Below, in pieces: positions 9,982-13,782 of a DNA stretch of 17,076 nt. The stretch lies in contig NQJG01000011.1 in NCBI GenBank assembly GCA_002256465.1, forward strand, positions 1 to 17,076. The letters are read 5' to 3'. The notes beneath the pieces are model-generated. The model was not told the origin of the DNA and did no database searches. It was given only the letters and a program-made list of their open reading frames with translations. How positions within the stretch are numbered: position 1 is the first letter of the stretch; the number at the start of each line of letters is the position of its first letter. The translations under genes were made by a program, and so were the position numbers. The DNA is from Methylococcaceae bacterium NSP1-1. GTDB lineage: Bacteria; Pseudomonadota; Gammaproteobacteria; Methylococcales; Methylomonadaceae.

Positions 9982-11628
9982 TTAATCTTTAAAAAAACTA
10001 TCAAGCTTTTGCCGGTCTGATTGAGCGAATGATCGAATCAGATTCTTAAAATTTTCATCCAGATCTTGTTTAAGCAGGTTGACGTTTAAATGCTCAATAA
10101 TGGATTGTTCCTTGCTGGCGAGTTCAGAAAATTGCGTTACTGTCTGATGACGTTGATGTATAAATTCAAGTACTTTGTTATGACCTTCTGCCATATCAAC
10201 TTTCGCTTCATAAACACCAACTCGTGCCATTTTTAGCACGACTGCCAGCATATCGATGGCCAAAAATAACAACATAAAAATTAAAAAGACCAGCAAATTG
10301 TGCCAGGAAACGCCTTGGTTAGGAAAAATAAGTTGAGTGAGTATTTCCGTTTGCGTCAACACATCAGGCTTTAAATTGGTAATAAAGGCATCTTTTTCTG
10401 CACAGCGACGGCTTATGAGATCTTGTTGCTCACGAAGCGACGCGAGATTTTTTTGATCAAGGTCGTGTTGTTTCACGCGGATTGTTTTTAATTCGTCGCG
10501 TTCTTTCTCGCATTGTTTTTTTGAGGCTTGTTTGACTTCGATTAATTGGTTGGCAATTTTTTCGTTAAGTTGACTGATTTGCCCTTCTAACGCAACAATT
10601 TCTTTGCCAAGCCTGATGCTGTCATCTTTCCGATCACTTGCTTGACTCAGCCATTTTTTACATTGCGTACCCTTTTTGCAGCCACGAACCCCGGTAAAGC
10701 CAGTACCGGCAGCCCCTTGTTTTTCTTTCTCGGCGTTTTCAATAAATAATGCAACGTCCTGGTTAGCCTGGATTTGTTTAGCTTTTAAGACTTCCAATTC
10801 CTGGTTTAATTTTTCAATTGTGGGCGCGTCTGCCAAAGTTGAAAGAGGTGTGTTATCGGTACAAATGGGGGGATCAAAAAGTTGATTGCTGTTCTTTAAT
10901 TCGTTGCGAAACTGAGTAATTTTTTCATCGAATAAACGAATATCGCTTTGAGGATTTTTTAGATCACACTGTTTGGCCAGGTTATTGCGTTCCGTTTTTA
11001 TGCGTCCTTCGTTGTAGGCGGCATCTATGCGTTCGCTGAACAAAAGCAGGACCACCGGGTGAGCAACGGTTACGGCAATAAGCAAGGCAATCGCAAATCT
11101 TATAGAAAATTGCCCTACTTTTCCCCAAAAGGAAAAGCCTTTCCTATAAGTCGCCAGTAATGCTCTATCCATCAGCAGAATCATGCATGACCAAACAAGG
11201 GCGACTGGAACTATGGTATAAACACTAAAGTTTAAGGTGTAGAGCAAAAAAGAAGCGGTAACAATCGCTAATAAGGCAGGAATCAAAACGGTTCCGCCGA
11301 GCGCCGCATGTTTTTTTTGTTCTGATTCCGGGCAAGTTGCCAGGATTTTTGGACTGACTCCGGATAGCCAAATAAAAAAGCTTTCGAGTTTATTAACCGA
11401 AAGCTTGGCTTCAGGTGAGTTATTCTTTAAATTTGAATTTTCAAGCGTATCAGTAAAATGCCTGAATTCTTCTACAGAAAAATCGAAACCATGTTCTTTG
11501 GCAAAATTATCGATAGCTTGGTCTCGATATTTATCAGGGATCGCTTGTAAAGTTTTATTAAAAAGTTGAAAAAAATCGAAATCATTCCGAATTTTTTGAT
11601 AAAAACGCTGTACTTCTCCAAGCGACAT
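9982..11628 (-). CDS. DUF4407 membrane protein with an N-terminal Nif11-like domain
   Basis: Membrane protein of unknown function, 548 residues. Residues 1-60 match the Nif11 leader domain of RiPP precursors: MSLGEVQRFYQKIRNDFDFF, then AIDNFAKEHGFDFSVEEF. From about 83 it becomes DUF4407, with FFIWLSGVSPKILATCPESE and three membrane helices at about 109-131, 136-157 and 173-197. A charged coiled coil covers about 205-430, a fourth helix lies near 446-468, and a cytoplasmic tail follows. By the positive-inside rule both ends are cytoplasmic and the coiled coil is periplasmic. That loop holds at least six cysteines (for example in RGCKKGTQCKKW) that could form disulfides. No Gly-Gly or Gly-Ala cleavage site is obvious between the Nif11 part and the first helix, so the domain may bind a partner rather than act as a cleaved leader. 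The ATG at 11628 has AGAAGAG upstream. It is transcribed alone and divergently from the 12001 gene. Confidence 0.85.
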   Translation of the reverse strand: MSLGEVQRFYQKIRNDFDFFQLFNKTLQAIPDKYRDQAIDNFAKEHGFDFSVEEFRHFTDTLENSNLKNNSPEAKLSVNKLESFFIWLSGVSPKILATCPESEQKKHAALGGTVLIPALLAIVTASFLLYTLNFSVYTIVPVALVWSCMILLMDRALLATYRKGFSFWGKVGQFSIRFAIALLIAVTVAHPVVLLLFSERIDAAYNEGRIKTERNNLAKQCDLKNPQSDIRLFDEKITQFRNELKNSNQLFDPPICTDNTPLSTLADAPTIEKLNQELEVLKAKQIQANQDVALFIENAEKEKQGAAGTGFTGVRGCKKGTQCKKWLSQASDRKDDSIRLGKEIVALEGQISQLNEKIANQLIEVKQASKKQCEKERDELKTIRVKQHDLDQKNLASLREQQDLISRRCAEKDAFITNLKPDVLTQTEILTQLIFPNQGVSWHNLLVFLIFMLLFLAIDMLAVVLKMARVGVYEAKVDMAEGHNKVLEFIHQRHQTVTQFSELASKEQSIIEHLNVNLLKQDLDENFKNLIRSFAQSDRQKLDSFFKD

Positions 11629-13101: not shown

Positions 13102-13159
13102 AAAAAAGCCGAACGCCTCAATGTGACTTTAACGAAGTCATACTCGGCAATTCGGCTTT
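13102..13159 (-). terminator. Rho-independent terminator that overlaps the riboswitch candidate
   Basis: On the minus strand AAAGCCGAA (complement of 13151-13159) pairs over 9 bp with TTCGGCTTT (complement of 13105-13113) and is followed by a run of six Ts (complement of 13102-13107). Inside the arm a second helix, TGACTT/AAGTCA (13124-13129 with 13135-13140), caps a 5-nt loop. The first terminator strand is also the 3' strand of the aptamer candidate, so the two folds exclude each other, as in an ON-type transcriptional riboswitch. Confidence 0.65.
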
Positions 13160-13222
13160 CCTGATTTAGGATCCGCAACTTTCTGTCCCTACGTTACCAT
13201 AGGTTTGGCTTTATTGATCAAA
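13143..13222 (-). ncRNA. c-di-GMP-I (GEMM-I)-like riboswitch candidate
   Basis: GEMM-I aptamers bind cyclic di-GMP and control nearby genes. On the minus strand, read 5' to 3', the order of conserved pieces matches: GCCAAACC (13209-13202), a hairpin CCTATG-GTAA-CGTAGG with a GNRA tetraloop (13203-13188), GGGACAGAAAG (13189-13179; consensus GGGACGCAAAG), GGATCCTAAATC (consensus GGnCCTAAAnC) and AGCCGAATTGCCGA (consensus AGCCGGGTTGCCGA). Deviations are real. The consensus GGCAAACC is GCCAAACC, placing C where the ligand-contacting G20 is expected. The helix next to it (normally GGC with GCC) does not form well here, because the partner reads GTTGC. It is therefore a divergent member, a decayed one, or one with altered ligand choice. 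The terminator and the ribosome-site hairpin downstream make a sensible expression platform. Confidence 0.55.
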
Positions 13223-13428: not shown

Positions 13429-13782
13429 TTACTTGACAGGCTTTTCATCATTCAACGCATACCAGCCAATGGTAATCCTGTAAACTAACAACACGACTGT
13501 TGCAATTAAAATAAAAAAACCGACACCCATTTCTAAAGTCACCCCGGACACAGCAAACCCTGCCAAAGTTATCCAAACGGTTTTGATTTGCCAGTTGAAA
13601 TGAGATTCTAGCCAAGTCCCCTGCACTTCTTTTCGCTTGTAGAAGTTAATCGCCACTCCCAGCAGCAATGGCAATCCTGCCAGCATAAAGGTTAGTGCCT
13701 GACATAGGTAGACTGTGGCCGCCAGTTTTTTTAAAGTTTGCAATTTCTCAGTATCTTTTTGTTCAGTCGTAATATCATTCAT
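13429..13782 (-). CDS. Small DUF4870-like integral membrane protein
   Basis: 117-residue membrane protein of unknown role. A hydrophilic N-terminus (about 1-22) is followed by a first hydrophobic segment (YLCQALTFMLAGLPLLLGVA, about 26-45). Then comes a cytoplasmic-type loop with NFYKRKEVQGTWLESHFNWQ and two more hydrophobic stretches (about 68-84 and 86-104), ending YRITIGWYALNDEKPVK. The NY-x-KR-x-E-V-x-GTWLESHF pattern is shared with small membrane proteins annotated as DUF4870 or COG3671. The start at 13782 is supported by a GCAGG ribosome site. It is transcribed in the same direction as the riboswitch-led pair downstream and glcF upstream, but gaps of about 100 nt or more separate them. 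Confidence 0.75.
   Translation of the reverse strand: MNDITTEQKDTEKLQTLKKLAATVYLCQALTFMLAGLPLLLGVAINFYKRKEVQGTWLESHFNWQIKTVWITLAGFAVSGVTLEMGVGFFILIATVVLLVYRITIGWYALNDEKPVK

Follow-up and report, generated by a model that had tools for sequence, protein, structure and literature searches.

The pilM riboswitch of Geobacter metallireducens, a cGAMP-responsive GEMM-Ib member that resembles the element treated here, is described in the accessible part of PMC9262584 as an ON switch whose aptamer and terminator exclude each other. There, the terminator captures the cytosine that pairs with the ligand, and binding is then lost. The available portion of PMC3764141 names G20, C92, A47 and A48 as the key ligand contacts of class-I aptamers and describes a contact of A49 with the G45-C22 pair; its list of highly conserved positions, as given in that portion, includes C22 and G45 and excludes 21 and 46. 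Switches of the same class precede PEP-CTERM genes in the methylotroph Methylophaga (PMC12530212, available text). Our search of the open-licence literature on c-di-GMP-I riboswitches in Methylobacter found nothing.

A class-I aptamer on the minus strand

The window, that is, the whole 17,076-nucleotide stretch of Methylococcaceae bacterium NSP1-1 that was analysed, contains at 13219-13143 of the minus strand an element that, judged from its sequence, is a genuine member of the c-di-GMP-I riboswitch class and mostly ordinary in kind. It matches the full-length Rfam covariance model RF01051 (c-di-GMP-I, GEMM-I) with 53.7 bits, above the cut-off of 35, at an E-value of 2.9e-8 for the whole window and both strands, and it is the only match over the cut-off in this genome. 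The original prediction, which had placed the element in the GEMM-I class and proposed this very search, was borne out as to the class; RF01786 (c-di-GMP-II), also proposed, gave no covariance-model match at E up to 10. Folding of the element region yields a z-score of -3.59, and an equally good fold was found in 1 of 200 dinucleotide shuffles.

All of the predicted GEMM-I blocks are found within 13219-13102 of the minus strand: AAACC (13206-13202), the GTAA loop (13197-13194), GGGAC-AG-AAAG (13189-13179), GGATCCTAAATC (13174-13163) and AGCCGAATTGCCGA (13157-13144). They build an aptamer with a weak P1, a P2 helix (13203-13198 with 13193-13188) capped by a GUAA tetraloop, and a P3 helix in three segments (13180-13177/13152-13149, 13175-13173/13155-13153 and 13171-13168/13162-13159); several non-standard pairs are flagged in the Rfam alignment. 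With the RF01051 consensus the element shares G20, A47, C92, a GNRA loop on P2 and the P2/P3 layout, whereas it differs in a 21-46 pair flipped to C-G, in C.A at 22-45 and in the weak P1. It also scores close to the variant family c-di-GMP-I-GGC (RF03167), with 50.5 bits, under that family's cut-off of 59, and with an E-value smaller than that of RF01051 in a short search, so that RF01051 is displaced there. The printed RF03167 consensus has G at position 47, while the element has A47; the "GGC" of the family name is presumably tied to this G. Two relatives (L064 and L065) attain the RF03167 cut-off with 59 and 60.1 bits.

The register of the binding site

In the register of the Rfam alignment the element reads A19 G20 C21 C22 ... 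G42 A43 C44 A45 G46 A47. Vibrio numbering was transferred by our own count, which agrees with the positions named in the accessible text of PMC3764141. G20, C21 and C22 accordingly fall at 13209, 13208 and 13207 of the minus strand, and A45, which faces C22, G46, which pairs with C21, and A47, on which the ligand stacks, at 13184, 13183 and 13182. It had been proposed that a C replaces the ligand-contacting G20. This reading was rejected as being out of register: G20 is kept, the changed base is position 21, and the ligand contacts G20, A47 and C92 are all canonical. The further claim that the adjoining helix is non-complementary holds for one half of this two-pair helix, since C22.A45 is unpaired, but fails for the other, where C21 pairs with G46. 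Hence, the element carries a flip of the usual G21-C46 and a mismatch in the place of the usual C22-G45.

How common these changes are was examined in several samples. In the window's genus, RF01051 matches occur in 11 of 35 genomes and number 64 in total, with up to 18 in some relatives. By scripted scan, pair 21-46 is C-G in 57 of the 64, G-C in 3 and something else in 4, two of which (L212 and L214) are misplaced and by eye have C-G at both pairs. Pair 22-45 is C-G in 40, U-A in 11, C.A in 5, U.G in 5, A.G in 2 and A.A in 1. A pattern that required C21-C22, G46 and A or G at 45, and that thus leaves U22 forms outside the count, occurs at least 126 times in at least 117 stretches of the genome_contigs collection. 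The exact 31-base span was found at least 99 times; among the matches listed, at least 97 have G45 and at least 2 have A45 (L078, Nitrospiraceae; L157, Methylococcaceae). These counts make the C21-G46 flip common and C22.A45 rare-looking in that collection. On this comparative basis the flip is ordinary variation; the idea that it signals a new ligand class was discarded in view of the at least 97 exact-span occurrences with G45, which come from a wide variety of bacteria.

In a sample of the family, presumably Methylomonadaceae, 103 of 201 genomes contain a class-I match. Position 20 itself varies in related switches, being C in L019, L209 and L215 and, as in cGAMP switches, A in L028, L032, L074, L237, L261 and L266. 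Class-I switches can also be clustered within kilobases, as seen for five at 110752-115707 of contig G002:C145 and three at 1324174-1326663 of G010:C1; some clustered switches directly precede PEP-CTERM-like genes.

Terminator-coupled relatives

With the 121-base element as a DNA query (E 0.001, at most 3 candidates scored per genome), matches were obtained in 52 of 237 family genomes and 17 of 29 genera. An alignment of 41 sequences was assembled, 39 of them from the 42 matches extending at least to query position 119. Of the remaining three, L240 was dropped because the script did not find its core, G216:C181 because it is partial and L070 because it is divergent. The other two aligned sequences, L067 and L073, were entered manually. 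L157 was omitted as a copy of L236, and L066, L071, L072 and L074 were left out because their terminator arm is lacking or they are divergent or misaligned. In L066, L072, L221 and L070 the terminator arm is broken or missing or the aptamer degenerate, with intact copies in the same genomes.

Throughout the 41 sequences, pair 21-46 is C-G and position 47 is A; C92 is present in 39 and G20 in 38, the other 3 (L237, L261 and L266) having A at position 20. Pair 22-45 is U-A in 24, C.A in 13, U.G in 4 and C-G in none; although conserved in the class, C22-G45 is therefore no strict requirement. Since 13 of the 41 sequences share C22.A45, the mismatch is not a sign of local decay; on comparative evidence it marks a lineage, in which it probably forms a tolerated wobble. 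Within the window's genus, all 6 elements with a detected terminator have U-A or C.A at 22-45, while a terminator was detected in none of the 40 elements with C-G and in none of 18 other non-C-G elements; the detector misses L025, whose terminator is visible by eye, and L074 is misplaced. An unlikely reading is that a terminator-coupled branch of class-I switches in the methanotroph family gave up C22-G45 in favour of U-A, C.A or U.G, and that the weaker pair adapts the switch to transcriptional control by retuning its affinity, its kinetics or its choice of dinucleotide. The association between pair 22-45 and the terminator would be explained equally well if the branch simply shares a common ancestor.

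One strand in two predicted, exclusive folds

The predicted intrinsic terminator (13159-13102, minus strand) consists of a 9-bp helix in which AAAGCCGAA (13159-13151) pairs with TTCGGCTTT (13113-13105), and of a run of six Ts (13107-13102), just as originally described. A simple terminator scanner that admits loops of 3-8 only reported none. The strand from 13159 to 13147, i.e. the 3' side of P3 up to C92 (13147), is also the 5' arm of the terminator. When transcripts that begin at 13222 are folded, P2 plus P3 has the lowest energy at all sampled lengths between 75 and 111 nt. At 115 nt it is overtaken by the terminator fold, with -31.4 kcal/mol compared with -28.5 kcal/mol when P3 is forced, and C92 is then paired within the terminator. 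The shared strand and the mutual exclusion known from pilM are thus found here on a computed and comparative basis, and the competition that had been predicted between aptamer and terminator gains support from both the fold computation and covariation in the 41 relatives.

Within this alignment, 95.5% of 738 aptamer cells are paired, and 8 of 18 aptamer pairs, including 5 of the 6 in P2, change on both sides; cells changed on both sides number 45, as against 10.2 in shuffles, and sliding controls reach at most 50.1% pairing. For the terminator, 93.8% of 533 cells are paired, compared with 92.2 in shuffles, and 4 of 13 pairs change on both sides, a number reached by 41 of 500 shuffles. Here, 16 cells are changed on both sides, as against 5.1 in shuffles, and sliding controls stay at or below 58.9%. 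The number of further pair types in the terminator is not above that in shuffles, 409 of 500 of which reach it. Among the 41 relatives, one terminator pair is not kept in 17, the shared aptamer pair is broken in 3, and L263 is without a U run.

Because kinship inflates the shuffle tests, more weight is placed on the sliding controls and on a three-way pattern at the shared column (13152). Read as P3 partner, shared base and terminator partner, this column gives U-A-U in 17 relatives, C-G-U in 10, C-G-C in 8, U-G-U in 2 and U-G-C in 1, and so is compatible with both folds in 38 of the 41; the misfits are C-A-U (2) and C-U-U (1). A smaller set of 8 relatives displays the same covariation trend.

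Downstream genes

After the U run follow a Shine-Dalgarno-like stretch (13080-13073) and an ATG (13065-13063), all on the minus strand. The conserved body of a small protein (13061-12942), of which an intact 41-aa relative (P0089) exists, lies in a frame that differs from that of the ATG; this frame shift in the first downstream gene may be real or an assembly fault. Next is a 75-aa orphan gene (12945-12718), probably the last of the unit. A database search with its product gives 88 proteins with E no higher than 0.001, one of them its own entry; where a source is given, most are metagenomic. Among 237 family genomes the gene occurs in the window's own only, and none of 47 pattern stretches in genome_contigs and none of 13 in viral_contigs was confirmed as encoding a relative. 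Comparison with Pfam, NCBIfam and PDB sequences gave nothing over the cut-off and no recognisable domain; weak DUF4222 matches appear in 3 of 24 members of the protein set, and the predicted structure has a mean pLDDT of 56.4 and a pTM of 0.29.

The frames that follow other switches of the genus have a hydrophobic N-terminus in 27 of 35 cases and a PEP-CTERM-like tail in 14 of 35, by a crude measure and a crude pattern, respectively. Hydrophobic N-termini are likewise found in 16 of the 19 frames of the terminator-coupled set; the window's frame is among the 3 without. Exported PEP-CTERM-like targets are a feature that related switches of the genus share with those of Methylophaga (PMC12530212, available text), whereas the targets in the window are small orphan proteins that lack PEP-CTERM-like features. 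Elsewhere in the window (9982-11628), a protein with a Nif11-type N-terminus fused to a DUF4407 domain is encoded.

Proposed mechanism and ligand

The element very probably works as a c-di-GMP-I riboswitch of the transcriptional ON type, as supported by the two folds, both kept by paired changes, and by the shared column, which covaries with both partners. Against this reading count the mismatch at a highly conserved pair that A49 contacts, the weak P1, the lapses in terminator and shared-strand pairing among the relatives, the smaller E-value of RF03167 in the short search, the frame shift in the first downstream gene and upstream promoter-like sites that do not exceed expectation. According to the computed folds, P2 and P3 would form first during RNA synthesis. 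Binding of c-di-GMP at G20, A47 and C92 could then hold the 3' strand of P3 and C92 within the aptamer, which would permit read-through into the small downstream genes. Without ligand, the shared strand is predicted from computation and covariation to pair with the later GGCGUUCGGCUUU, so that the terminator forms and transcription stops. That ligand should prevent termination is suggested by the capture of C92 in the terminator together with the analogy to pilM.

A20 is the change linked to cGAMP binding. The element has G20 in contrast to the cGAMP-responsive pilM switch, and is predicted to favour c-di-GMP. The window's genome, which is about 77% complete, yields 6 GGDEF and 4 EAL matches. 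At the site that we take to carry Ser in Hypr enzymes, all 6 GGDEF domains found have Asp, as is typical of diguanylate cyclases. Together with G20, this makes c-di-GMP the most likely ligand, as a leaning rather than a proof. In Cd1, binding was little affected when the base equivalent to G20 was mutated, according to the accessible part of PMC9262584, and G20 alone is therefore no proof of the ligand.

Decay or a changed ligand choice had been put forward. With G20, A47 and C92 canonical, the 21-46 flip common and C22.A45 recurrent in 13 of 41 relatives, neither is supported as the leading explanation. A decayed riboswitch, in which C22.A45 spoils the pocket and the terminator alone or nothing still works, is improbable. 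In its favour are the mismatch in a conserved pair, the frame shift in the first downstream gene and the single match over the cut-off in this genome, where some relatives have up to 18. Against it, the same C.A is found in relatives that keep both folds, P2, P3 and the terminator are intact in the window, and the open 75-aa frame is matched by many close relatives. The same architecture could also recognise a different dinucleotide, be it cGAMP or an unknown one, which we regard as very improbable. The changed pair adjoins the pocket, three aligned relatives have A20, the Cd1 mutant hardly differed in binding (PMC9262584, accessible part) and RF03167 scores close, but the three ligand contacts argue against it, as does the lack of a Hypr-like GGDEF domain among the six found in the 77% complete genome.

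Finally, the likeness to a riboswitch could be due to chance, with the hairpin serving merely as the terminator of the upstream 117-aa gene (13429-13782), which is encoded on the same strand. The stretch that separates this gene from the element has promoter-like sites that are weak and no better than expected (4 on both strands, with 1.9 expected). Yet the RF01051 E-value and the covariation of both folds across relatives render this extremely unlikely. The ON-switch mechanism is backed by good comparative evidence, with one unusual pair.

Significance

The analysis corrects the misreading of G20 and also maps natural variation at the sites surrounding the class-I pocket. The 41 natural switches, in each of which one strand would take part in two exclusive folds, form a test set for the effects of C.A and U-A on binding and switching. 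For the methane oxidisers, the related switches of the family would extend to this group the c-di-GMP control of exported proteins that is reported, in the available text of PMC12530212, for the methylotroph Methylophaga.
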